From: Hydractinia symbiolongicarpus
Taxonomy: Eukaryota; Cnidaria; Hydrozoa; Anthoathecata; Hydractiniidae
Direction of reading: 5' to 3'
DNA length: 64,000 nucleotides
NCBI RefSeq assembly: GCF_029227915.1
Contig: NC_079875.1
Location: 27,340,001 to 27,404,000, forward strand
This document shows positions 9,451-49,126 of this stretch, in pieces. The translations under genes and the position numbers were made by a program. The notes under the pieces are model-generated. The model was not told where the DNA came from. It saw nothing but the letters and a program-made list of their open reading frames with translations, and did no database searches. The stretch's first letter is position 1. Each line of letters begins with the position of its first letter.

Positions 9451-10288
9451 TTAAGCCGCTCACATGTGAACGGTTGTAACTTCTTAAAGTCCCCATCCGC
9501 CGCGGTATTCGGAATAGTCGCTGGACCGTATGATCTAAGGAAGTCCTTAGGAAAATGATCAAGAAATGATACTGCTGCTTTTGTACGACGTCATATCTAA
9601 ATATATGTAAAAAATGTGTATAGGTAATGGCACATTTTCATATAGCTAATTTTTTTAAAAAACGCATTGCAAACTTTATCAAGAAAGTTTTGTGTCATAA
9701 TTGTTTTTTTAAATATGCATTTTAAGCTTTATGAAAGCTATTACGTTCATGATCTGGAAAGAAGTGAATATAACACTTAACTTTACAATGTTGAACCACC
9801 AATATCAACCAAGCGACTACTGACTTGGAATATTTTGCTGCTTTATACTTTTTTTCAAATCCCTGGAGATATAAAGACGTAGCGGAAGTTTTTTTTCGTG
9901 AAACTGTATGGTGGAGAACTGAAACATAAAATTATAATTTTTGTCTCATACACACACACACACATACATACGCACATGAATGACTTATGGGGACATCAGT
10001 GTCAGTCAGCGTTATGGGACAATTCGCGTGATTTTTTTTTATTTACTTTTTTTCTTAATTTTAATGGAAAAATTACTTTGTGGTAACTAAAGACAATATG
10101 TAGTGGTCTTATTACAAACATACATCGCTTAAAAAACCTTACAAATTCAAATAAATCGATTTAAATCATACCGGTGTGAGTTAGTGTTATGGGCCAATTT
10201 TTATTAAACTTATGTAAATTTATATTATACATATTGTTTTTATTACCATCATATTAGAAATACTTTTTTTTGTCAAACATATTTCTCT
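9451..10288. other. Intergenic; (AC)n tract and sequences resembling the downstream 18-bp repeat
   Basis: No gene seen. A CA microsatellite lies at about 9950-9964. GACTTATGGGGACA (about 9982) and GTTATGGGACA (about 10011) resemble the inverted form of the 18-bp satellite unit that follows, as does GTTATGGGCCA near 10185. Confidence 0.5.
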
Positions 10289-10486
10289 GTCCCATAAGTT
10301 GTGTGTGTCCCATAAGTTGTGTGTGTCCCATAAGTTGTGTGTGTCCCATAAGTTGTGTGTGTCCCATAAGTTGTGTGTGTCCCATAAGTTGTGTGTGTCC
10401 CATAAGTTGTGTGTGTCCCATAAGTTGTGTGTGTCCCATAAGTTGTGTGTGTCCCATAAGTTGTGTGTGTCCCATAAGTTGTGTGT
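10289..10486. repeat. 18-bp satellite, 11 identical units
   Basis: The unit GTCCCATAAGTTGTGTGT repeats exactly 11 times with no substitutions over 198 bp. Because 18 is divisible by three, open frames run through it on both strands, but these are by-products of the repeat. Complete identity means recent expansion or homogenisation. The unit resembles the ends of the MITE at 28945-29224. Confidence 0.95.
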
Positions 10487-24097: not shown

Positions 24098-25013
24098 TAA
24101 AAGTTTTCTAGTACTGGGTTATTTCCAAGTCGTTTTAGCTATCTCTTGAGTTACATAAAAAAGAAATTGTAAACTCAAGAACAATTTCTGAATAAGCCTT
24201 AAATTAATACTAAAAGAAAAAAATATATATCAAGGCCAACCTGATGTAATTGTTAAATTTAGTTGCAGTTTGCATATGCATTTAAGATAAAAGGTAGAGA
24301 GAAATGCTGAATATACACTTTTTTGTAAAAAAAAATGTTGCTAAGACTTACTGTTGCTTGAAATAACAAATTCATTCGCTTGACAATAAAAAACAAACTG
24401 TTTTATCTTTGTGGTATATCTCCGGAACCATTGTTTCTAATATCCCTGTTTTTGCTTTTTTTAAAACAGCCTGTTGCTCAATAACTGAAATAGTTCAAAA
24501 GAAAATTGCTTCGATTTTTTACAAACTGAGTAGTTGCTTATAAAAAAGGTGTACATGCTTAATTTAATGCCCTACCGTATTTGCAAAGCACACAAGGTTA
24601 CGCCTGGAATGCCCTTTGTTCTTCAAAGGTAAAATTGCATTAATACAGAACGTGCTCATTCCAAACACTCTTTTTTTATGTAAGAACATTCATAAGAATA
24701 GCAAAAACTTCTAACATGTAGATTTTCAACATAAGGCATTTATATCAAATAAATAAAGATTTGTTAAATGAACCCATTCCATAAAAAAGAAAAAAGAAAA
24801 AATATAGTAACATTTAGATTTTTAACATTTAAGTACATATGTCTAAAGTTATATACCCGGGTTAAGCCACAAGTAACCATGTGACCTGGCGTTAAACGCT
24901 TGGTGGAGTGCTTAATATGAGCCGTAAACTGTGTCACACATTCAGGTGGAGCGCCTTAGTACAGGTATGCATTTTATAAAAAATTCCAAAGGACTTGATA
25001 AACAACTTTTTAT

Positions 25014-25054
25014 CCTCCACAACATATAAAATATCATTTTATATGTTGTGGAGG
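25014..25054. repeat. Perfect 19-bp-stem hairpin
   Basis: CCTCCACAACATATAAAAT is followed by a 3-base loop and its exact complement. Flanked by two copies of CTTAGTACAGGTA (about 24954 and 25084). No gene in this neighbourhood. Confidence 0.9.
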
Positions 25055-25097
25055 AATAGTCTGTTGTTAACACTGGGCTGAGCTTAGTACAGGTAAA

Positions 25098-25884
25098 CCT
25101 TTTAGAAGATAAAAGATTCAACAGAAACCTACAAATCTAGCATTGAATATACCATTTCCGCGGGCGATCAAAACAAAGTCAGTAAAAATATATCGCATTT
25201 GGTATTTCATACAGATATAAAATTATGTGTTATTATAACAGGACGCGTCTTTTACGGACAGACAGAATTATAGAATAGGAAATCTGTGCCTGTCTATGAC
25301 TTTTGCAAAGTGCATTATATTTTTTTTAAATTTTTTACTGCACTATCATTTTTTCTTAAATATCTTCAATTTTTAACAAAAATTGCTTTAAAACAATCTA
25401 TTTTGTACAACTGCAACTGGCGTATAAGTAATCAGGATGCTCCCGTAGGTAAAAAACTACCTGGGACCCAATTAAATCAATTTCCTAAAACTTGGTAAAC
25501 ACCTATCAAAAAACCTTCAAGGCCTAATCTCTTCAACCGTTCGTCAAAACATAGTAACTAGAAAAGAATAGTTTAGGAAATTTGGCTGTTTATTTAGCTA
25601 ACATGACCAATACAGCTAAGTTTTCTAATTTAGATGGGGTTGTCAGAATAAGGTGCACGATCATTTTAAAAATGGTCTTGGCACAGGGTGATTTTCTTTG
25701 CAAGGATGACCTTGATGCTATTTTAGTGGCAACTGACGCTGATATGTTGGAAATTTTTGATAGTTAATTGCTTTGGGTTCCAGAATAATAACACACAATT
25801 GATAGAAACAATGTATTTCTATTGGAATGAGTAGATACACCACGTTCAATATGCATAGATTATTTATGCATTGTAGGTGTCTTC
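25098..25884. other. No recognised gene
   Basis: Open frames at 25286-25498 and 25582-25767 show no recognisable motif; the second reads plausibly protein-like (VRIRCTIILKMVLAQGDFL) but I cannot assign it. Confidence 0.25.
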
Positions 25885-26410
25885 ATGCTCTGAGCGTCAG
25901 AAACATGAGACAATGGTGTTTTCTTTCATACCCTGAGCGTCAGGTGTATGAGAGAATTGAACAAATATGTAACGCATATCCTGAGCGTCAGGATATGCAT
26001 TATAGGTGTCTTCATGCTTTGAGCGTCAGAAACATGAGACAATGGTGTTTTCTCTCATACCCTGAGCGTCAGGTGTATGAGAGAATTGAGATGCCTTGAG
26101 TGTCAAGTGCATCGGCATGTCCTGAGCGTCAGGCACATGCTAATTACTGGTGTTTTTATTCATACCTTGAGCGTCAGATGTATGAGAGAATGAGATGCCT
26201 TGAGCGCCAAGTGCATCGACATGCCCTGAGCGTCAGGCGCATGTTTCCTATTCCAGTAAAGATTACAGTACACATATCTACAACTACATGTCCTGAGCGT
26301 CAGGCACATGCAAAATACTCGTGTTTTATTCATACACTGAGCGTCAGGTGTATGAGAGATGCCCTGAGCGTCAGGCGCATCGACATGTGCTGAGCGTCAG
26401 GCACATGCTA
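25885..26410. repeat. Array of 14 short palindromes with TGAGCGTCA core
   Basis: Fourteen copies of a hairpin module with core centres from about 25894 to 26394. Twelve of 14 share TGAGCGTCA exactly; the others read TGAGTGTCA and TGAGCGCCA. The inner stem is CCTGA/TCAGG or CTTGA/TCAAG around a 3-base loop. Outside it, most copies have one unpaired base on the 3' side and then an outer stem of 5-9 pairs. Outer stems differ between copies yet stay complementary: TCATAC/GTATGA, GCATGT/ACATGC, GATGC/GCATC, ACATGC/GCATGT, GCATAT/ATATGC, TCATG/CATGA. Copy spacing is irregular, about 25-60 bp, and a 95-bp block holding two copies is duplicated (25869 and 25996). I know no named family with this design. 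Confidence 0.9.
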
Positions 26411-28944
26411 ATTACACATGCTAACTTCTGGCCGGGTTCGAACCCGGATACCGTCGGTTGAAAGTACAGATCAATGACCACAAGGCCGGTTTGACCTTGA
26501 AGAACTAGCACAGTGTGGGGTGTTGGGGTTTTATATGCAGCCATTAATAATGAAGACCTGGGTAGGGTCCAGTTCCTTTACAAGCAAGTGAGACTACTAT
26601 CCTGACAACCTTTAGATCAGGTCCATAGGTAGAAACCATCCCCCACTGTGCAAGGCTCTACATTGCATCCTCAATGACTAAGGTAAACCTATAATGTATA
26701 CTAACTACAATGCTAAAGAACTGTACTTCTGTCACCACAATTAACATTAGCAAAACTTGCAGTTTAGCTCCATATAAAGGTTTGTGTTTAAATCAAAACA
26801 TCTTTTAAGAACAGGTTAAACCTTACTATTGTTGTTCATTATTGAGAATTGTGAAGTGAGAATTATAAAGGTGACTGCTTATATCAAGTATTCAGTTCAT
26901 TGAGAGATCAAATCTTACTATTTACGAATTTCAAGTTAAAAGTTAAAGAATAAAAATTCCAAGCTGTAATGTTGTTTTTCTGATTTTTGAAGCTTCTCCT
27001 CCATGCTTCTGATCACATTCTCCATTTTGAAATCAATCAATTTTTGTAATATGTTTTCCATTTACTTCTTTGGTCATATTCAAGATCTATGGGTCTCAAG
27101 GAAATGAATGGATTTATCAAAAAAAAAAAAATGTGAGTTTTACGTTTTACCCACGTCACTAAGACGTGAGACTTGAATGAATAATTTATTACTTTTTTTC
27201 TTCCTGTTAAAGCTTTGAAAAAATGGAGGGCCTTGTACATCAAGTACAATCCACCTCAGAAACTTCCAAGGTACTCTTGACGTATAATATTCACAACACA
27301 AGAGGGTATGACACGATGTACGCCTTTTCCGAATCATAAAACTCGGCTGGGTTTCCAAGCTACTCGCACTAACAGGTTTATATTGAAAGCCAATAACATT
27401 AATTTTATTGCTTTTAGTCGCCGTTTTCATTGAAAAATTGTTTTGAAAAAAAATAGAGGAATATGTATTGATCAACTAGAATGCAATCTACATATGTATT
27501 TCACAAGGAATAAAATGATAAAGACGTCTCAGTTTTATTTCAGGGGGGTTATGCTTTTTCTTGTTGTCAGTCCCGAAAGTAGTTGTATGATCACTGACGT
27601 CAAACGCATAATTACGCATATTAAATTTTTTACCCAGTCTACCGTGCAAACATTCAGAATGAACAAAGCTTTGACATGGCATAAAGTTTTGTTTATGCAT
27701 GTTTTGATTAAAGATTGATGGGAAAGGTATAGCAGTTTTCTTTATCAGTGTACGAATTATGAGTTGACAGAGCCATCATAAGTTTCAAGCAGTCACTAAC
27801 CTTTAAAGGGAATTGTGAAGTTAACCTGAAAAGTTATTTAAGGAACTTTGGTGGTCCTAAAATGCTTCATATTGCCATAAAAAAAATTGTGGGCACAAAA
27901 AGTTGTAAATGGTAAAGAAAAGATAATAAATGAATTGAAATGCAGGAATGATTTTAAAAACACTTTTATGAAATTACAGAAATGAAACTTATATTTGAAA
28001 CTTTGCCAGGCTTAAAACATTGTTTCTATTTGTTATTATAGATGTAATTACATCGTATTGGCCTCATTGAAAATACCTACATTCTGTAAGTCAGGAAGTA
28101 TAGCTAATACACACAACAAAAATTTCAGACTTTACCATTTATACTCTATAGTCTTGTTATTATTCTGGAACCACCTGGGGTATTCCCAAATTACCCTTGA
28201 ACAGACTACGCCTTTTCAAATAAACACTGGCATATTTCCTGCAATTATTGCAAGGTGGACTTTGAACCCTCCGTTTTCAGGAACGAAGCACACAAGAAGT
28301 ACCAACAAGGAGAGACTCTTTTGAGAGATGTACTAGCTATCTTGCCTTTTTGTTTACATTTCGGTACCAGTATTAAATCCTGGACCTTTAAACCTTGTAT
28401 CGTGTTGTAATTCACAAAATTTTGAAACACTTCGGATTTAGCATGTTTAGCATTTATAGCTATATCATTTTGCTACATAACAAGACCGGGGATAGTTAAA
28501 ATACAATTAAAATACAAAGATAAACTGTAATTTTTTTTAAAGAACCTCTTCATCATGTTAGCTAGCAATGTTTGTGGGCTTTGCTATCTGAGAACGGAGT
28601 TCAAATTCTAACTTACTCAACTTGCAGGAAAATTAAATATGGCTGCACTCAACGGCATACACCTTCAATTTTATTGGAATTACTCAGAGTCTGTCTGTCC
28701 TTCCGTCTTGTCGTTTTAAATACCCTGCAGAAATGGTCAGTTAACTAGGCTACAGGTTTTCAAGACAAGACTGTTTGAGTTTGAGAAACTAGCCAACCAA
28801 AATCATTTACAAAGAAAAATTAGCTAGCTACCCAGCGAACCTAATTTACTAGAATCCACAAAAAATGATCGGCTATGTTATTATATTAATTTCTCAATAC
28901 AATTTTTTACCTTTCCAGCCGGGGAGGATCGAGTTTTGCAGATC
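26411..28944. other. No recognised gene
   Basis: Contains a box-B-like palindrome at 26431-26447, a CACGTC/GACGTG inverted pair near 27152-27168 and AT-rich DNA. Several short frames (27140-27718, 28058-28324) show no motif. Confidence 0.3.
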
Positions 28945-35972: not shown

Positions 35973-38900
35973 ATGACGGAAACAAATTTTGAAAATTTGG
36001 AATTCCATCCATTCCAAACCAACGAAACCTTACTATTAAACGATGAAAATGACCCAAACTTAAATTTTTATAACTGTACATTGTCCAAGAACACTAATAC
36101 AAAATATTATTCTCCAAATTCAGACAATATTTTTGCACATGCAAGAAATTATTCCTTTTCTATACTACATCTCAACATTAGAAGCATGCAAAAGAATTTT
36201 GAGAGTTTTAAACAGTTTCTCCACACTCTGAATTTTCGTTTTAAAATAATTTGTCTCACTGAAACTTGGTGTCGTGATGAAGCCATAAAAAACAATTCAA
36301 ATTTTCAATTGTGTAATTACTCGGTGATTCATCAAATTAGAAACTCTAACAAGGCGGGTGGTGGCGTGTGTGTGTTTATTCATAATTCTCTATTGTATAA
36401 AAAAAGAACAGAGCTATGTGTGAATAATAACGATTGTGAGTCATTAAGTGTAGAAATACTGAACAAAACCACAACGAACATCATTGTGAGCGTAATATAC
36501 AGGCAACCTGCAGGATCAATTGATAATTTTAAAACGTTAATTGAACCTATTATATTGATCAATAAAAACACCAGCAAAGCAGTATACCTCGTGGGGGATC
36601 TTAACCTCAATACACTTGATTACGAAACAAACAAAAACATCCAGTGTTTCTTTAACTTTATATTTCAAAGTGGGTATATTCCTCTCATAAATAAACCAAC
36701 CCGGGTAACTAAACAAAACGCTACAGTAATTGATCACATCATAACAAATTCATTTTGCGACAAAGAACTACATTCGGGTATTATCAAAACAGACATCTCT
36801 GATCATTTTCCCATCTTTATCACGTCCAATACAAACTTTGATAAACAGTCAAACCATGTAAAAATAAAAAAGCGAAAAATAAATGAAAATACAATAACAT
36901 TATTTAAGTATTTATTGGCTAAGGTAAAATGGGACGACGTGGTAAAAGGGAAGGATGCAAATGACGCATATGATAGCTTTCTGAAAATTTTTTTGGAAGC
37001 TTATGATGCGGCATTTCCAGAAGAAATTAAGTTTATTAAGACCAAAACATTCTTTAATCCCTGGATGACTAGGGGTCTCCAAAAATCTTCCCGAAGAAAA
37101 CAAAAACTATATGAAAAGTATTTAAGAAAGAAAACCTACGGGAATGAAACACTGTACAAAAATTATAAAAACCTTTTTGAATTGATAAAAAAGCGTGCTA
37201 AGAATTTTTACTTCAATGAACAAATTAATAAATACAAACATAATGCAAGAAAAACATGGAATATCATCAAGGAAGTGATTGGTAAAATAAAAATTAGAAG
37301 TAATAATTTTCCTTCAAAACTTGTAAATGACGAAAATGAAATTGAAGAACCATCTTTGATAGCTGAAGAATTTAACAATTTTTTCACTAAAGTGGGGCCG
37401 ACCCTGGCGTCGAAAATAGGTCACAGTACAAAATCCTTTAAATCGTATTTGTCATATTATGATAATGAAATAGAGAAAAAAGAGCTAAGTGAGGAGGAAC
37501 TAGAAGCAGCATTTCATTCTTTGCAAATCAACAAAAGTCCTGGCTTTGATCAAATCAGCAGCAATGTCTTAAAGAACTGTTTCAATGAACTAAAATCTCC
37601 ACTACTGCATATATTTAATTCATCTCTAATTACAGGCATTGTTCCTAAAAAGTTAAAAATAGCTAGAGTTGCCCCAGTCTTTAAAGCAGGAGAGGTTTGT
37701 AAAGTATCTAACTACAGACCAATTTCAATACTCCCTTGCTTCTCGAAGATTTTAGAGAGAATCATGTACAACAGGGTTTATTCTTTCTTGAACAATAACG
37801 ATATTTTTTATAATAAGCAATTTGGATTTCAAGCAGGTCATTCAACTGATCACGCAATCATTCAGTTGAGTCAGGAAATATTTCAAGCCTTTGATGAGAA
37901 TAAATTTACAATTGGGGTCTTTATTGATCTCAGTAAGGCATTCGATACAGTCAACCATGAGATTCTATTAGAAAAACTAAAAAATTATGGCATAAGAAAT
38001 ACATATCTCACATGGTTCAATAACTACCTCTTCGAAAGAAAACAATATATTTCTTATGACGAAGGAAATACTAACTACAGGATTATAACATGTGGAGTAC
38101 CTCAAGGGTCAATTTTAGGGCCACTGTTGTTTCTTATTTATATCAATGATATATTTAGAGCATCTAGTGTCTTAAATTCAATTTTATTTGCTGATGATAC
38201 AAATTTATTCTTTACTCATAAAGATATAAACGTACTTTTTGAAACCACTAACCTAGAATTGGCTAAATTGGCTGAATGGTTTAAAGCGAATAAATTATCC
38301 CTTAACACTTCAAAAACTAGATATACCTTTTTTCACAAACTTAGTAAAAAAGATAAAATACCTCTTAGGTTACCTGGATTAGTTATTGATCATGTAAACA
38401 TAAGAAGAGAATATTCAATGAAATTTCTTGGAGTTCTCCTAGACGAAAATTTAACTTGGAGAGAACATATTAAATTAGTGGAAAACAAAGTTTCCAAAAG
38501 CTTAGGAATCTTATATAAAGCCAGTTTCGCTTTGAATAAGAACTGCTTAAGAAGCATATATTTTTCCTTTATACACTGCTATTTAAACTATGCAAACATT
38601 GCATGGGGTAGCACTAATATAACAAAATTAAAAAAACTGCACATTCAGCAAAAACATGCCAGTAGGATTATATTACGACAGAACAAATGTTCCCATTCTA
38701 GACCATTGCTAAAAGAACTGGGTATTCTTAATGTATGTCAGCTAAACATTTTTCAAGTCCTTATTTTTATGTATAAGATTAAAAATTTAATAGCACCAAA
38801 TATATTCATTACATTATTTAAGAAAGTTCAACATAAATATCCAACTAGATTTTCAGGTAATAATTTCTTTCGGCCAAAAATCATATCTAATGTAACAAAA

Positions 38901-39041
38901 TTTTCAATATCAAACCGAGGCCCAAAACTCTGGAGCATGCTTCTAAACGATGAGATAAAAAGCCTTCCATCTACAAAACAATTTAAAATTGCACTAAGAA
39001 ATCAGCTGTTACGAAGTAATAACGAACAAGTCTTCTTCTGA
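35973..39041 (+). CDS. LINE ORF2: AP endonuclease + reverse transcriptase, intact (1022 aa)
   Basis: The ATG at 35973 opens a frame of 1022 codons. Residues about 60-290 form the endonuclease: ILHLNIRSM, LTETWC, SVIYRQPAG, LVGDLNLNTLDYE and DISDHFPIF carry all expected metal-binding and catalytic positions. Residues about 500-790 are the reverse transcriptase: NKSPGFDQI, VSNYRPISILP, FGFQAGHSTDHAI, VFIDLSKAFDTVNH, CGVPQGSILGPLLF and FADDTNLF with the catalytic Asp pair. The rest is the usual C-terminal domain without a clear zinc knuckle. The enzyme nicks target DNA and primes cDNA on the nick. No stop or missing catalytic residue was seen, so it may be functional. Starts 54 bases after ORF1. 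Confidence 0.92.
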   Translation: MTETNFENLEFHPFQTNETLLLNDENDPNLNFYNCTLSKNTNTKYYSPNSDNIFAHARNYSFSILHLNIRSMQKNFESFKQFLHTLNFRFKIICLTETWCRDEAIKNNSNFQLCNYSVIHQIRNSNKAGGGVCVFIHNSLLYKKRTELCVNNNDCESLSVEILNKTTTNIIVSVIYRQPAGSIDNFKTLIEPIILINKNTSKAVYLVGDLNLNTLDYETNKNIQCFFNFIFQSGYIPLINKPTRVTKQNATVIDHIITNSFCDKELHSGIIKTDISDHFPIFITSNTNFDKQSNHVKIKKRKINENTITLFKYLLAKVKWDDVVKGKDANDAYDSFLKIFLEAYDAAFPEEIKFIKTKTFFNPWMTRGLQKSSRRKQKLYEKYLRKKTYGNETLYKNYKNLFELIKKRAKNFYFNEQINKYKHNARKTWNIIKEVIGKIKIRSNNFPSKLVNDENEIEEPSLIAEEFNNFFTKVGPTLASKIGHSTKSFKSYLSYYDNEIEKKELSEEELEAAFHSLQINKSPGFDQISSNVLKNCFNELKSPLLHIFNSSLITGIVPKKLKIARVAPVFKAGEVCKVSNYRPISILPCFSKILERIMYNRVYSFLNNNDIFYNKQFGFQAGHSTDHAIIQLSQEIFQAFDENKFTIGVFIDLSKAFDTVNHEILLEKLKNYGIRNTYLTWFNNYLFERKQYISYDEGNTNYRIITCGVPQGSILGPLLFLIYINDIFRASSVLNSILFADDTNLFFTHKDINVLFETTNLELAKLAEWFKANKLSLNTSKTRYTFFHKLSKKDKIPLRLPGLVIDHVNIRREYSMKFLGVLLDENLTWREHIKLVENKVSKSLGILYKASFALNKNCLRSIYFSFIHCYLNYANIAWGSTNITKLKKLHIQQKHASRIILRQNKCSHSRPLLKELGILNVCQLNIFQVLIFMYKIKNLIAPNIFITLFKKVQHKYPTRFSGNNFFRPKIISNVTKFSISNRGPKLWSMLLNDEIKSLPSTKQFKIALRNQLLRSNNEQVFF

Positions 39042-43580: not shown

Positions 43581-44552
43581 ATGATATCAGTTCAGGCATA
43601 TCGTGCCACTATCGGTTCGTTTTATAATGTAGCTGCTATTCATTCCAGTAATGATATTAAAAATAAAACAAATTTCCACAGCCATACAGGAATGTTTTTT
43701 GACAATCTGGATAATAGCAACCACTTCATTTATTTTTTAAAACTTTTTAGTTTATTAATTTTTATATGTTGTCTAAGCTGTAACATCAATCTTGCATGTT
43801 TGAAGTTACTGTTATTGTTATCAGGGGATATTGAAAGCAATCCTGGACCCTTTAATAACAATGATATTGACTTCCAAATAGCACTACAAGAGTCTTATGC
43901 TGCCCATCTTTTAAATGAGTCAAATTCTGCAGACCATATAATTGCTTATGCTAGAAGTATTGGTCTGTCAAATATAACATATCGTGAAGTGACGATAGGA
44001 GATGGCAACTGTTTTTATAGAGCAGTAGTACAGCAACTTGATCGGCCTGAGATCAGACAAATTGTCCCCTCTGAACTTAATTTCCAGAACCATGTTGAAC
44101 TACGAGCAGCTGTGGTCAAATTTGTCCGCAAAAATAGCAACATAGGAATTTTTCAAAATAATCGGACCTTTTATTCAAAAAGCTCTGAAGAGTGGGAACG
44201 TGACTTACAAATTCAGTCAAAACCTACTGTCTATGTTGAAGAAATTTTCATACAAGCTGCCGCAATAATGCTGGGCGTCAACATTTTGATAACATCTGAT
44301 ACCAGTACTGCGATGCACCCATATACCCTTATTAGTCCTACTTATGATGAAACACATGATATTGCTGGGGAACAGCAATTGGCACATCTATTGTCTGATG
44401 GTACCACTGCAGGTGCTTTTATTTTGCTTGGGAGAGTAAATAGAAATCACTACCAATCATTGGTCTTTGATGACAATTTGAGCCTTCCTTCTGTTGCATT
44501 GCACCACTCAGTCCACCTAAAAAAATTCCCTGTTTGTCATCGGGCAATGTAA
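43581..44552 (+). CDS. 2A ribosome-skipping leader + OTU cysteine protease (Helitron first ORF)
   Basis: ATG at 43581. Residues 49-80 form a strongly hydrophobic segment (IYFLKLFSLLIFICC...LLLLL) running straight into GDIESNPGP at residues 82-90 (43824-43850), a full match to the DxExNPGP 2A consensus; skipping would occur between Gly89 and Pro90. Residues about 133-298 are an OTU fold: IGDGNCFYRAV supplies Asp141 and Cys144, NRNHYQSLVF supplies His290. The ORF ends at a frameshift, likely in the A7 run near 44522, after which linker coding continues in another frame. The leader before 2A could act as a signal or membrane anchor, as reported for some 2A-bearing proteins. Inference: the leader is released co-translationally from the OTU-Rep-helicase polyprotein. 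Confidence 0.8.
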   Translation: MISVQAYRATIGSFYNVAAIHSSNDIKNKTNFHSHTGMFFDNLDNSNHFIYFLKLFSLLIFICCLSCNINLACLKLLLLLSGDIESNPGPFNNNDIDFQIALQESYAAHLLNESNSADHIIAYARSIGLSNITYREVTIGDGNCFYRAVVQQLDRPEIRQIVPSELNFQNHVELRAAVVKFVRKNSNIGIFQNNRTFYSKSSEEWERDLQIQSKPTVYVEEIFIQAAAIMLGVNILITSDTSTAMHPYTLISPTYDETHDIAGEQQLAHLLSDGTTAGAFILLGRVNRNHYQSLVFDDNLSLPSVALHHSVHLKKFPVCHRAM

Positions 44553-44917
44553 TTCAACCTAAAGATACAACAAATAAAAAATATGGTAAAGAGAAAGTGA
44601 TTACTTTAAAGGAAAAGCAAGATCTTCTAGTGGAAAAAGTAATGAAATCTCATATGTCTGTTGTAATACAAAACAGACCTAAAACTAATAATTTTTTAAA
44701 TAAAGAACTTGCTCTAAAGCAAAAGTGTCTTCAGTTGAATATTAAATATGAAGAACCTGAAGTCAATGAAACAATTACCGAAACAAAAAATAGGCGCAAG
44801 CGAATAACTTATAGATGCAAAAAAGCCGTTTGTAAAACAGCTGTGGGTAAACAGAAAAATTTGATTTTAAAAAACCCGCCTGTTACACTGCCAATCACTT
44901 ACACACAATCAGAATAA
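44540..44917 (+). pseudogene. Helitron linker, Lys-rich, frame 2
   Basis: Continues the polyprotein after the OTU domain: VIQPKDTTNKKYGKEK, then RRKRITYRCKKAVCKTAVGK, a basic Cys-containing stretch. No domain recognised. Ends at a stop (44915-44917); coding resumes five bases later in another frame, so a small indel separates them. Confidence 0.5.
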
Positions 44918-44921
44918 TATT

Positions 44922-45863
44922 TTGTCAACAAATTTACCAACTACACACTCCATATCAACAACTCAGTCAATGCCAACAAGTTCATCAATTGCACAGACGA
45001 TACCAAAAAATTTGCCAACCTCACAACAGTCAATACCAAAAAATTTGCCAACCACACAACAGTCCATACCAAAAACATCAACCATACAGTCAATGTCGAC
45101 AGTTGTCACAGGCAACCAGTCCAGTGATCAAGACAACATTTTTGGAAGTGAAACTGCCACCATTCATCAAAATCCCGATGTAGTGGCTGCTGTAATACAG
45201 TTTGAAGAAGGTGAGAAATTACATAGTTTATCAACATGTAAAACTTGTCTTGAAACTCGACCAGTATTTCACGCAACACCTCCAATAAGACCTACTGCAA
45301 AAAATGAAACAAAACCAATTGCTGTTAAGCCTTGGAAAATATTCAGCGATGGTAGGTGTGATAGGTGTCACAGGGAGAGTCTTAGTCGTTTTAAAAAGAA
45401 TGTTAAGACACCTGCTAGATTTTCAGGTATACTGTCAGCTGATAATGACGACTTGGGTCCGTTACACGATAACATTCGTCATAATGATATGCATTTTTTA
45501 CCAGTACCACCATATCTTCAAAATTTGACCATACTAGAAGTAGCATTAATTCGTCGTATTACTGTCATTATGAATATACACCTCCTGCGGTATGGCATGC
45601 TTGCATCAAAAGGTCATTGCATCAGTTTTCCTCAAAGAATGCAAATTGCTACTGAACTGCCATCATTACCGTCAGAAGTTGGAATAGTGGTTATTAAAAA
45701 GAAAGGAATTCAAAATTCAGTTCAACAGTATACTGTGCAAAGGGGTAAGTTGAAAACGCAATACGGGGACTGTGTTTTGGATACCCAGAAGGGGGTGTTG
45801 AAGGTCCAGATACTAAAAATAAACATCAATACAATGGCTCTGATCACATTGACAAACCTTTAA
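44922..45863 (+). pseudogene. Helitron Ser/Thr/Pro/Gln linker and DUF6570-like region
   Basis: The first 60 codons are low complexity with a 36-bp tandem duplication encoding IPKNLPTxQQS (about 45001-45072). Next come two Cys pairs (CKTC, CDRC) and LTILEVALIRRITVIMNI with KGHCISFPQ, the signature of the DUF6570-like region that precedes Rep in many Helitrons. A frameshift near 45780-45800 ends the frame; the other frame continues with GPDTKNKHQYNGSDHI. Confidence 0.6.
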
Positions 45864-47700
45864 AAGGACGCTACTTCCAGTTCCTGCCGAATGAATACTA
45901 TAAGGATGTCTCAATAAAATATGACCGCATTCAAAATTTACCAGAGATGCGTTCTGAATTACGTGATTTGCCAGTTGTGGAATTGCCAAATATCATACCA
46001 GAAGGAGATAAGGGTCCTGCTGAAAATCAATTTCAACAAAACTTACCTGACGATGACGAGAGTACAACCCGTTCTGGTTTAGTTTGCCCGGTTGAACCTA
46101 AAGATGCACACAAAGAGTTACGAATAGTACTGGAGAAGCTCTTGGGTTCTGAAGATGCAGTTAATCAAGCTCTTCAACATGGCACAGTTGCGAATGCAAA
46201 TTTAGAATATACACGAGAACGGCCTATTCGGGAATTAAAAACTCCTGGGTTTTTTACTATGGCATACCCAACTGTTTTTATTAATGGAAATTGTGACTTA
46301 ACTGTTCCAAGGTTAAATAAAATTAACTTTAAGGAATACATCGAACATATATATTATTGTTCTGATAATCGTGTAGCACGTCATCCGTACTTGAAATTTT
46401 TCTTATTAAATATGCGTTTGCGAATGCAAGCATTGCAGCAGGATAGCTTTCTTGTTTCCCAACAATTAAATGATGCTCATCTCACAATCGCTGAACTTCG
46501 AGATAATTTACAAAATGATGATGATTCAGTTCCACGTAAAATTATTAGTATTGGAAAAAACCTGGTAAATACCGATCCATACTGGAGAGACCAAAAAACA
46601 AATTGGATGCCATGCTGTTTTTTAGACGAAATGAATTTGGCGATTTACCAGCATATTTTGATACCAACAGTTGTGCCGAATTTCATTGGAAACCATTGCA
46701 TGAACTACTTATTAAGTATTATGCGTTAATAAACAATGTAAACGAAGATGCTGTACGCCAGCAAATGGAAAGTGATAATAAATTCAAGCGGGAAATGATT
46801 CTACAAAATCTTCATATTGTGACACAGTATTTCGATGCAAGGACTATAAATTACTTCGCCACAGTTAGTAAGGAAGTATTTCAATATGATGACTATTGGT
46901 TGCGATATGAATTTGCTTAAAGTCGAGGTGAGATACATGGACACGCAATAATATCGTCATCTAAACATGCCCGGAAAGTCAAAACTATAATGGATAGCTT
47001 GTCTGATGATGTTGCAGACTCACAAGCATTAAAACCTGGAGCGCAAGAACTTCAAAAATGGTTACAAACAACAAATGAAGACAGTAATGACATTTTTTCA
47101 CCAATGTTTACTTCACTGCATCCTGCTGGTGGAAATGAAATTATAGATACTTCTGGAATTAGAACTTGGGTTCCAAACAAAGATCAATGGGCCAGACCAG
47201 AGGGGACTCAAGCTCCACCGGACCATAACCCATTGGCACAAGAACTTTCGGATGTTGCTAGTCATGAAGGTGGTATAAAAGAGCAACATATCTATCTTGT
47301 GAACAGGATTGGCCTCCATAATTGTAATTCCAATTGTTTGCGTTATCGCCGTAAGAATAAAAAAGATACTGCTCCACAGAAGTACTGTCGCTTTCATTTT
47401 GGCGATCTTGATCCACAAACCAAAAAAACAAGTGGTAAAGAGATTCATCCTTTTAATGCTGTCATAACAGAAGGGGGACATCCTAGATATGAGGGACCAC
47501 GGGATCATCCTCGCTTGATGATGCATGTAAAAACACGCATACTTAGTTGGCTAGCAAATTGTGATAGTCAACCCATTATCGATCAGAACCTTCTCGCTCT
47601 ACAAAAATACATTGCTAGTTATGCTTGCAAAGGTGCTGCTTCAACGGAAGATTTAGTACATGTTTATCGCCATCTCATTGAAAACACTGATGATGGAAGC
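45864..47700 (+). pseudogene. Helitron Rep (HUH) domain, with in-frame stop at the HUH motif
   Basis: ELKTPGFFTMAYPTVF (about 46235) starts the Helitron-like N domain. After a frameshift near 46600, FGDLPAYFDTNSCAEFHW continues to the stop TAA at 46918-46920. Directly after, SRGEIHGHAII contains the HUH motif (H-x-H). The frame from 46990 is then open to 48549. LQKYIASYACKGA near 47607 holds the paired-tyrosine region with a downstream Lys. The stop right before the metal-binding motif kills the nickase, yet the next 500 codons are open, so decay is recent. Confidence 0.7.
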
Positions 47701-48549
47701 ACTGTTAAAAATTTGGCTCAACGACTACTTCAAAAAATTGCGGGTTTAGTAGATGTTCCAGGTGCTGCGGCGGATTTCATTAATAGTGGTGGTCGTCTGA
47801 CTAGAAGTACCAGAAATTTTCGATACATTGGTATCAGTGGTTTCCGAGCCTTGGATACGTCTGGTGAAGATGGAACTGTTACAAAAAGTAGCGCATTAGA
47901 CAAATACTTAAGTGATAAGCGGAGAGAAACTGAGCCAGAAATATCATTATGGAACTGGAGCAAAAAGTGTAATTGTACCTGCAAAGTAGATCACGTCCCA
48001 GTTTTTACAGGAATATCTACAAAACCTGTCTGGCCTGTTACTGAGGACTATGCAAAAGCTATGCTCATTATATTTTCTGTTGGAACGTGGCACAATACCG
48101 AAGATTTGAAGGGACAACATGAGTCATTTGCTGCTGCTTTGGCTTCCCTTGTTCAAACTGAAGAATGCCCATCAATATTAATTGATTCATTGAAAGAGGC
48201 TAAACAATCATTCGATAAAAAAAGCGAGAGAGCACAAAGTCACACCCGTGCAATCAATATTGAAACCAATACTCAGTGTTCGGATCAATCATCACAATAT
48301 ACAGATGCAAGTTCCCAATGTTCCCAAAATTCTGCCATTGCACAAATGAACATAGGTAGAGCAATAATGAGAGATATTGCTAGGCACCATGTTGCTGATA
48401 TCAATGAGCCGAATGTACAACAGGTTCTTCCTGATGGTGGGCCTACATTTGATTGGAATAAGTATGCAATTCAAAGTTTTGGTAGTCAATGGCCAATTAA
48501 TGCTGACATATGGTTACAATCTATATCTGAAGAAGCAGAAAAAAAATGA
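47701..48549 (+). pseudogene. Helitron region between Rep and helicase
   Basis: Same open frame as the Rep C-terminal part (46990-48549). CNCTCKVDHVPVF near 47970 is a small Cys cluster; EDYAKAMLIIFSVGTWHN is typical of the stretch before the helicase in Helitron polyproteins. A Ser/Gln-rich run (about 48265-48340) precedes a stop at 48547-48549; the helicase follows in another frame. Confidence 0.6.
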
Positions 48550-49126
48550 ATTGCAGCATGCTGAAGATTGTACTTTACCCCAAATAAACATCTTAAATGC
48601 TAATGAATTACAAAGAACAGTCATTGGTATAAATCTTCAGCATTTATTACAAGTCGCAAAAGGAACTTTGCCAACAGGTACCCAGCCAATACGTTTATTA
48701 ATACAAGGAACAGCCGGTGTCGGGAAAACATTCATCATTACCGCGCTTACTAGAATCGTTCGTCGTATTTTTAAGCGAAATTCTGCTGTTATGAACTTGG
48801 CCCCAACTGGGGCAGCATCAGTCCTCATACCTAATGGTCGCACTATACACTCAATGACTCCACCACCACACAAACTTAAAAAAGATAAGAATTTAAATTC
48901 TGTCCAGCTGTCTGACTATCCGTTGGGTGATGTAGCTCTAAAAAAGCTAAGAAAATATACAGGCATGCATGAAAACAATGAACTGAAATTGATTCAACTT
49001 AATATTGATGAACGTAGCATGCAGTCGAAGCTTCTAGTGGCTTGGTGCAGCCAAAGATTATGTGAGGCAACAGGAGACTTTGATAATTATTATGGAGGTG
49101 TACCAACTGTCAATAGGTGTTTGTAA
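48549..49126 (+). pseudogene. Helitron PIF1 helicase, truncated after Walker B
   Basis: IQGTAGVGKTFIITAL near 48704 is Walker A, NLAPTGAASVLI near 48796 is motif Ia, and LNIDERSMQ near 49000 is Walker B with Asp-Glu. The sequence ends at GGVPTV, just where GDxxQLPP should follow. Motifs III-VI are absent, so about two-thirds of the helicase has been lost by truncation or replaced by the non-coding DNA that follows. Confidence 0.75.

Follow-up and report, generated by a model that had tools for sequence, protein, structure and literature searches.

The described systems that come closest to the locus reported here are rolling-circle elements with central repeats and, for the hairpins alone, short bacterial repeats. 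HINE/Pearl elements have fixed flanks around a variable core, a layout given in two accounts (PMC7492417, PMC4067079). In the first account, the Cg_HINE elements have satellite-like central repeats, and tandem repeats at the center of rolling-circle elements are treated chiefly as satellite DNA that is carried along (PMC7492417). The second gives subterminal inverted repeats (subTIRs) of 11-15 bp as a criterion for Helentron/HINE elements (PMC4067079). Helraiser forms circles with precisely joined ends. Its 3' hairpin gave about 90% activity with a swapped stem, and a changed loop was not tolerated, according to that study (PMC4778049). In bacteria, REPs undergo single-strand processing by a HUH transposase (PMC8266576), and REPINs (PMC3116915) are grouped with them here for comparison.

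The whole stretch of DNA that was analyzed, 64,000 nucleotides in length, is referred to as the window and corresponds to C1:27340001-27404000 of the assembly searched (480.9 Mb, 76 contigs). It contains 14 modules at positions 25885-26410, and these were found to form hairpins when each was folded. The array is as follows.

25869..26416, + strand, hairpin array of 14 modules with the usual form NATRY-CCTGA-GCG-TCAGG-n-RYATN (core count, single-module and whole-array folds)

The cores are located at 25891, 25934, 25982, 26020, 26063, 26097, 26123, 26168, 26201, 26227, 26294, 26338, 26365, and 26391. The first-pass annotation had reported 14 hairpins, 12 of them with one identical core, and this count was confirmed. 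Exact TGAGCGTCA is present in 12 of the 14 modules, against a mean of 0.26 and a maximum of 2 in 100 shuffles of the window. About six types of outer stem were found, in keeping with its figure of at least six, and the duplicated block that it had noticed is 96 bp in length, with 97% identity between copies that lie 129 bp apart. In the usual module a GCG loop is closed by a 5-bp inner stem, and a single unpaired base on the 3' side separates this from an outer stem of about 5 bp. This agrees with the module first proposed, and it does not extend to all copies. Module 25982 has no unpaired base, module 26201 has a shorter inner stem, and modules 26338 and 26391, when folded singly, form the outer stem and not the inner core stem.

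Folding of the complete array is also strong. For the 548 nt, the DNA fold has a z score of -11.7 and the RNA folds of the two strands have z scores of -10.1 and -13.4; none of 100 shuffles equaled these folds. The best folds of these 548 nt pair several modules with each other and not locally. No Rfam family was matched within the array at gathering scores, and two tRNA matches were obtained elsewhere in the window.

The core can be followed through the genome. CCTGAGCGTCAGG occurs 820 times (420 + 400) in the 481-Mb genome, and the reversed control occurs 0 times. The first 100 of these sites lie on C1 to C3 and are clustered. From the clusters among them, 18 regions were taken, the window's own being excluded, and 17 contain at least part of one conserved end block on a fixed side of the array. 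The exception is L049, which has neither end block within 4 kb. The layout of the element is a left end (TTAATTGCTTTGGG), the hairpin array, and a right end (...CTTGCAGTTTAGCTCCAT). The copy in the window has the following parts.

25764..26773, + strand, whole element copy, TTAATTG...CTCCAT, with no coding capacity recognized (11 left and 9 right ends in register)
25764..25868, + strand, left terminal block, about 105 bp conserved (blastn and genome-wide left-end search)
26498..26773, + strand, right terminal block (matches of 82-88% over the block in L041, L042, L046, L048, L051, and L052)
26749..26769, + strand, 3' terminal hairpin AGC-A-AAACT-TGC-AGTTT-A-GCT, 4 nt before the end (fold of the last 35 nt and shuffles)

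The 11 aligned left ends include that of the window copy, and L040 among them duplicates L038. The blastn matches to the left block start at window positions 25761-25764 in nine loci, or eight without the duplicate. A query of 90 bases from the left end gave 125 first-look candidates. Of these, 40 were scored; they have 97-100% identity and lie on 12 contigs, and 39 are outside the window's own copy. The right block is partial or weaker in L050, L054, L043, and L045. No relationship is apparent among the 50-bp flanks of the copies printed, apart from those of the duplicates L038 and L040 and those at the tandem joins. Within the window, neither end was matched again with up to three mismatches beyond the copy at 25764..26773. 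Among loci, L044 is a segmental copy of the window region with 96-97% identity and L045 duplicates L043. For this reason L040, L044, and L045 were dropped from the module counts, L044 from the right ends, and L040 and L044 from the left ends.

The array is almost certainly the central repeat block of an interspersed family of mobile elements in a hydrozoan genome, very probably that of Hydractinia symbiolongicarpus. A hairpin that inserts by itself was ruled out, as 17 of the 18 fetched clusters hold at least part of an end block. The suggestion of a self-copying foldback inserting beside itself is supported as to mobility and not as to the unit, which is an element with conserved ends, about 1.5 kb in complete young copies.

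Copies differ considerably in size. The 12 two-ended copies that were measured are 383-3940 bp in length with 1-19 cores, and five of them, of 1349-1571 bp, have 14-19 cores each. A complete young copy, L055 57-1597, is 1540 bp in length and has 19 cores when one mismatch is allowed. The longest copies have extra sequence, for example a piggyBac-like frame or a 53-bp satellite. The former, named by eye, is on the reverse strand of L052 and is read as a nested insertion. The latter is an array at 1764-2487 of L059 (oriented), with the right block on one side and the terminal hairpin on the other, as if captured. No rolling-circle enzyme was recognized among the frames of at least 60-70 aa inspected by eye in the longer variants L046, L059, L042, L050, and L052. 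A 74-aa open frame recurs in the right block (L046 8785-9007 and L048 5415-5637, oriented, and also L059). An inverted repeat, CCTCCTTCGT / ACGAAGGAGG, brackets the hairpin array in the fuller copies L041 (3898 and 4684, oriented), L055, and L056; these exact motifs are missing from the window copy. The spacer of the window copy has a palindrome of its own.

26430..26451, + strand, tRNA B-box-like palindrome GGCCGGGTTCGAACCCGGATAC / GGGTTCGAACCC (spacer of the window copy)

It falls outside the blocks that align to independent loci, since the blastn blocks end at 26426 and resume at 26498. Viral contigs gave six matches, each a single copy of the 13-mer with no array. A literature search on the core string and the design found no such element, by title or start of abstract, among the papers listed, which does not prove absence from print.

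Several other features are present in the window. An 18-bp tandem unit, TGTCCCATAAGTTGTGTG, occurs in about eleven perfect copies at 10288-10486. A perfect 20-bp inverted repeat around 3 bases is located at 25013-25055, outside the element. A non-LTR element is represented at 35973-39041 by an open frame of 1022 aa; it encodes endonuclease and reverse transcriptase domains and has 82% identity to a Hydractinia symbiolongicarpus protein. The remains of an OTU/DUF6570/PIF1-type gene set form a broken row of frames at 43581-49126. This set is an association known from autonomous Helitrons.

The 3' hairpin usually has the form GAGCAAAACTTGCAGTTTAGCTC, GAGC-A-AAACT-TGC-AGTTT-A-GCTC, and is 3 nt from the end of the element. 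Shuffling of the last 35 nt gave such a hairpin 9 times in 5000, and random AT-rich strings gave one 145 times in 20000. The hairpin is intact by the script's rule in 6 of 11 right ends, and L050 has a different hairpin. A left-end hairpin of the internal design was considered and dropped, since its stem depends on G-T pairing and 10 of 11 copies do not pass the strict rule. Terminal inverted repeats are absent; the longest inverted match between the two ends is 7 bp, and a match of this length was reached by 202 of 3000 shuffles.

A right end directly abuts a left end in 6 of 18 cases (L044 left out), and in five of the six the junction is exact, CTCCAT being followed at once by TTAATTG. The remaining one has a mutated TTATTTG start. 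L055, L058, and L059 were selected for neighboring left ends on the same strand; among the initial loci and the window, 2 of 11 right ends abut a left end (L047 and L051).

The insertion sites were explored through the flanks. The copy in L042 splits a non-LTR reverse transcriptase frame at GATGAA^CTAGTA. Removal of the element restores a continuous frame (...KLKDE joined to LVKIEK...), so it seems that nothing was lost or duplicated there, multiples of three aside. When its two flanks were joined and searched against the genome, only these flanks of L042 itself were matched. Among the other two-ended copies, flank sequence led to a single usable empty site, that of the L051 tandem pair, in L048. 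This paralogous unoccupied site has 90% identity over 266 columns to the flanks of L051. It reads CCTA followed by a run of A, and the occupied site reads CCTAA before the element and TAAAA after it. Judged from these sequences, the insertion in L051 appears precise to 2-3 nt and a TA or TAA duplication is possible. No TA or TAA match was present at the flanks of the window copy, L041, L042, L050, L052, L056, or L060. The first-pass annotation had proposed to check whether each insertion duplicates its target; across eight two-ended copies there is no consistent duplication. With the boundaries as drawn, and with the element itself starting TT, the flanking bases of these eight are a and t in three and t and t in none.

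The hairpins follow an order that is common to copies. The outer stems run GCATAT or variants, CATGC, GATGC, CATGT, CATAC, GATGC, and CATGC or CATGT, after which the last groups are repeated. The usual spacings between cores are 38, 34, 26, 44-45, 27, 26, and 53, with some exceptions. The window copy is an older-looking, rearranged variant, and its outer stems still follow the order found in the other genomic copies and are not freely mixed. Thus, what had been described as intermixed stem types are positional classes of a higher-order repeat that was amplified in blocks. It had also been allowed that the stems might be fixed in one known MITE or satellite. They are indeed fixed by position in one element, and that element could not be named as a known one.

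Pairing was compared among modules and within positional classes. Among 110 distinct modules (of 154, from 16 sequences), counted with no pairing filter and with a register of one unpaired base assumed throughout, the innermost outer pair is C-G in 51, T-A in 23, and C.A in 14. The next pair is G-C in 68 and A-T in 12, and the fifth is C-G in 45 and G-C in 24. The stems therefore differ by paired changes. Within classes, 285 of 327 modules from 23 loci were tallied, with 42 modules left out because their classes had fewer than four members and with pair -1 of the D class set aside because its consensus mixes states. Of 2217 cells, 2073 are unchanged, 48 are G-U, 93 are broken, and 3 are compensated. 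An earlier grouping of 125 of 154 modules had given 69 broken, 33 G-U, and 5 compensated cells, along with 10 in which both sides had changed and did not pair. Since the cells that fail to pair outnumber those that were compensated, inserted copies decay largely without pairing repair. In the genome-wide sample, one stem class of 39 modules, GATGC/GCTTC, is mismatched (T.T) by consensus, so the complementarity reported for every copy applies to most stems and not to these. A separate shuffle test on 154 of 178 modules was given no weight, as its selection rule partly favors pairing.

One module has a history of its own. In the window it is the following.

25974..25998, + strand, D hairpin GCATAT-CCTGA-GCG-TCAGG-ATATGC, core 25982, in the T-A state (comparison of D modules across copies)

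The comparison uses the D module adjoining the CATGC module in 42 left ends, which over-represent young copies because they are largely the best-scoring matches; the state of L067 was taken from a degraded second module. The T-A state (GCATAT/ATATGC and variants) is present in 11 of the 42. A broken A.A state (GCATAA/ATATGC) is present in 6 copies at 5 loci, and an A-T state (GCATAA/TTATGC, with GCTTAA in two) in 18 copies at 15 loci. Of the remaining left ends, two have other D states and five lack a D module. Mean divergence within groups over the 165-nt left region, without the hairpin, is 10.6% for T-A, 3.0% for A.A, and 1.5% for A-T. In a FastTree tree of this region, A.A branches beside A-T and T-A falls mostly outside; the tree is midpoint-rooted, its topology is read without support values, and the long branch of L037 is placed oddly. 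The simplest history is T-A to A.A to A-T, in which a pair was broken and then restored in the commonest lineage of the sample. Were A.A instead derived from A-T, no copy seen would represent the intermediate of the first change. Two D modules are usual in older copies and one in young copies, and fusion of two D modules is part of the history of the element. Both D modules of the older copies are T-A, so fusion alone cannot account for the change. A second lineage, GCGTAT/ATACGC (L039 and L041, with one further change in L079), is paired at another position. The restoration is one event, and hairpin-templated repair predicts the same outcome as selection. The D series hints that the folded shape matters to the element. 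Compensatory variation had been taken at the outset as a sign that the fold is kept. Paired differences between classes and the one restored series bear this out, and the changes within classes, which mostly break pairs, do not.

The best explanation as a whole is an element moved by a rolling-circle process, with its fold kept in the source lineage, and this is given a probability of roughly 0.6. The lack of consistent duplication, the 3' hairpin, and the end-to-end junctions are rolling-circle features, and by analogy with known elements they make this mode of movement fairly likely. A rolling-circle enzyme (HUH Rep/helicase) acting in trans would move the element and would explain single-strand intermediates, the 3' hairpin as a stop signal, and the head-to-tail concatemers. 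Against this are ends that are not TC...CTRR, the possible duplication at L051, the incomplete retention of the 3' hairpin, and the failure to recognize an autonomous partner among the longer variants inspected by eye. As to the fold, the D series together with the broken pairs within classes suggests that pairing was probably preserved in the source lineage and is lost once copies have inserted. Somewhat more loosely, the internal hairpins may have begun as tandem copies of one palindromic unit of about 26 bp. In the active source lineage, either selection on a folded single strand (DNA or RNA) or repair templated by the hairpin could have maintained pairing, and inserted hairpins would decay neutrally. 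The excess of broken over compensated cells (93 against 3), the single restoration, and the mismatched GATGC/GCTTC class count against maintenance of the fold.

Other explanations account for part of these observations. The hairpins could be neutral, satellite-like passengers, with the apparent compensation arising from intrastrand template switching or having been set once in a founder. This is plausible, at odds a little below even. The positional classes are fixed and copies decay largely uncompensated, as expected for passengers, and the Cg_HINE elements have satellite-like central repeats as well (PMC7492417). However, templated correction would tend to erase the unpaired 3' base, which is retained, and a pair was broken in one group and re-paired in the group with the most sampled copies. 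It is rather doubtful that the element belongs to another class of DNA transposon, either Crypton-like with a tyrosine recombinase or an uncharacterized one targeting TA or TAA, with tandems formed by self-adjacent insertion. The possible TA or TAA duplication at L051 would suit it, and no rolling-circle protein is tied to the family in the longer variants inspected by eye. Such a duplication is not found at L042, L041, L056, L060, L050, or the window copy, however, and in five of six tandem junctions the ends are joined to the base.

A cluster of candidate binding sites for a dimeric factor (TGA-N3-TCA), as in subterminal transposase sites, is improbable. The palindromic core is nearly invariant in all classes, which such a factor could explain, whereas a double-stranded dimer site needs no covarying outer arms. 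A structured non-coding RNA transcribed from the element is still less probable. The RNA fold is predicted to be strong on both strands, but the DNA fold is strong as well and the array has no Rfam match at gathering scores.

Compared with known classes, the element departs from MITEs in having no terminal inverted repeats and, in eight two-ended copies, no target duplication of fixed length. Canonical Helitrons have TC...CTRR ends and insert between A and T; the copies printed here have TTAATTG...CTCCAT ends, and only three of the eight two-ended copies lie between a and t. With the non-autonomous Helentrons of the HINE/Pearl type (Cg_HINE of oyster, DINE-1), it shares fixed flanks around a variable core of tandem repeats, here with 1-19 cores in 12 two-ended copies. 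It also shares the lack of consistent target duplication, a 3' palindrome, and interspersion in both orientations. The core unit is different, as HINE monomers are 140-180 bp and the unit here is a hairpin of about 26 bp in a multi-hairpin higher-order repeat. The HINE/Helentron subTIRs are 11-15 bp, whereas the 7-bp match between the ends of this element is reached so readily by shuffling that it does not stand for them. The palindrome of Helentron/HINE elements is 8-35 bp from the 3' end and after the subTIR, and here it is 3 nt from the end. Their target is TT or T-rich and is not duplicated. With the boundaries as drawn, none of the eight two-ended copies lies between t and t, but the element itself starts TT, and the single usable empty site is AT-rich with an ambiguity of 2-3 nt. 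Because neither the subTIRs nor a clear TT target of HINE was seen, the element is filed neither as HINE nor as Helitron. The preferred reading is a non-autonomous element of the rolling-circle kind that carries central repeats.

The likeness to Helraiser lies in the 3' terminal hairpin and in the exact end-to-end junctions, which are as in Helraiser circles. The tolerance of Helraiser for a swapped stem also parallels the variable stems around an invariant core. For the modules, bacterial REP hairpins appear to be the nearest parallel. REP/BIME sequences and REPINs likewise occur in many copies as short, imperfect hairpins that contain a bulge, whereas the hairpins here are in an animal genome and inside a larger element. 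It is conceivable, though unlikely, that the array of up to 19 hairpins is recognized by structure as single strands in a eukaryotic rolling-circle element, as an animal counterpart of BIMEs. Stems would then be maintained in the active lineage, the enzyme would read the loop and inner stem, and the number and integrity of the hairpins would tune replication or termination. The repeats of this element are hairpins, and one of them has a break-and-restore series in the youngest and commonest sampled lineage. A role that depends on structure within a transposon of eukaryotes can thus be put to the test, and the animal concerned is open to laboratory manipulation.
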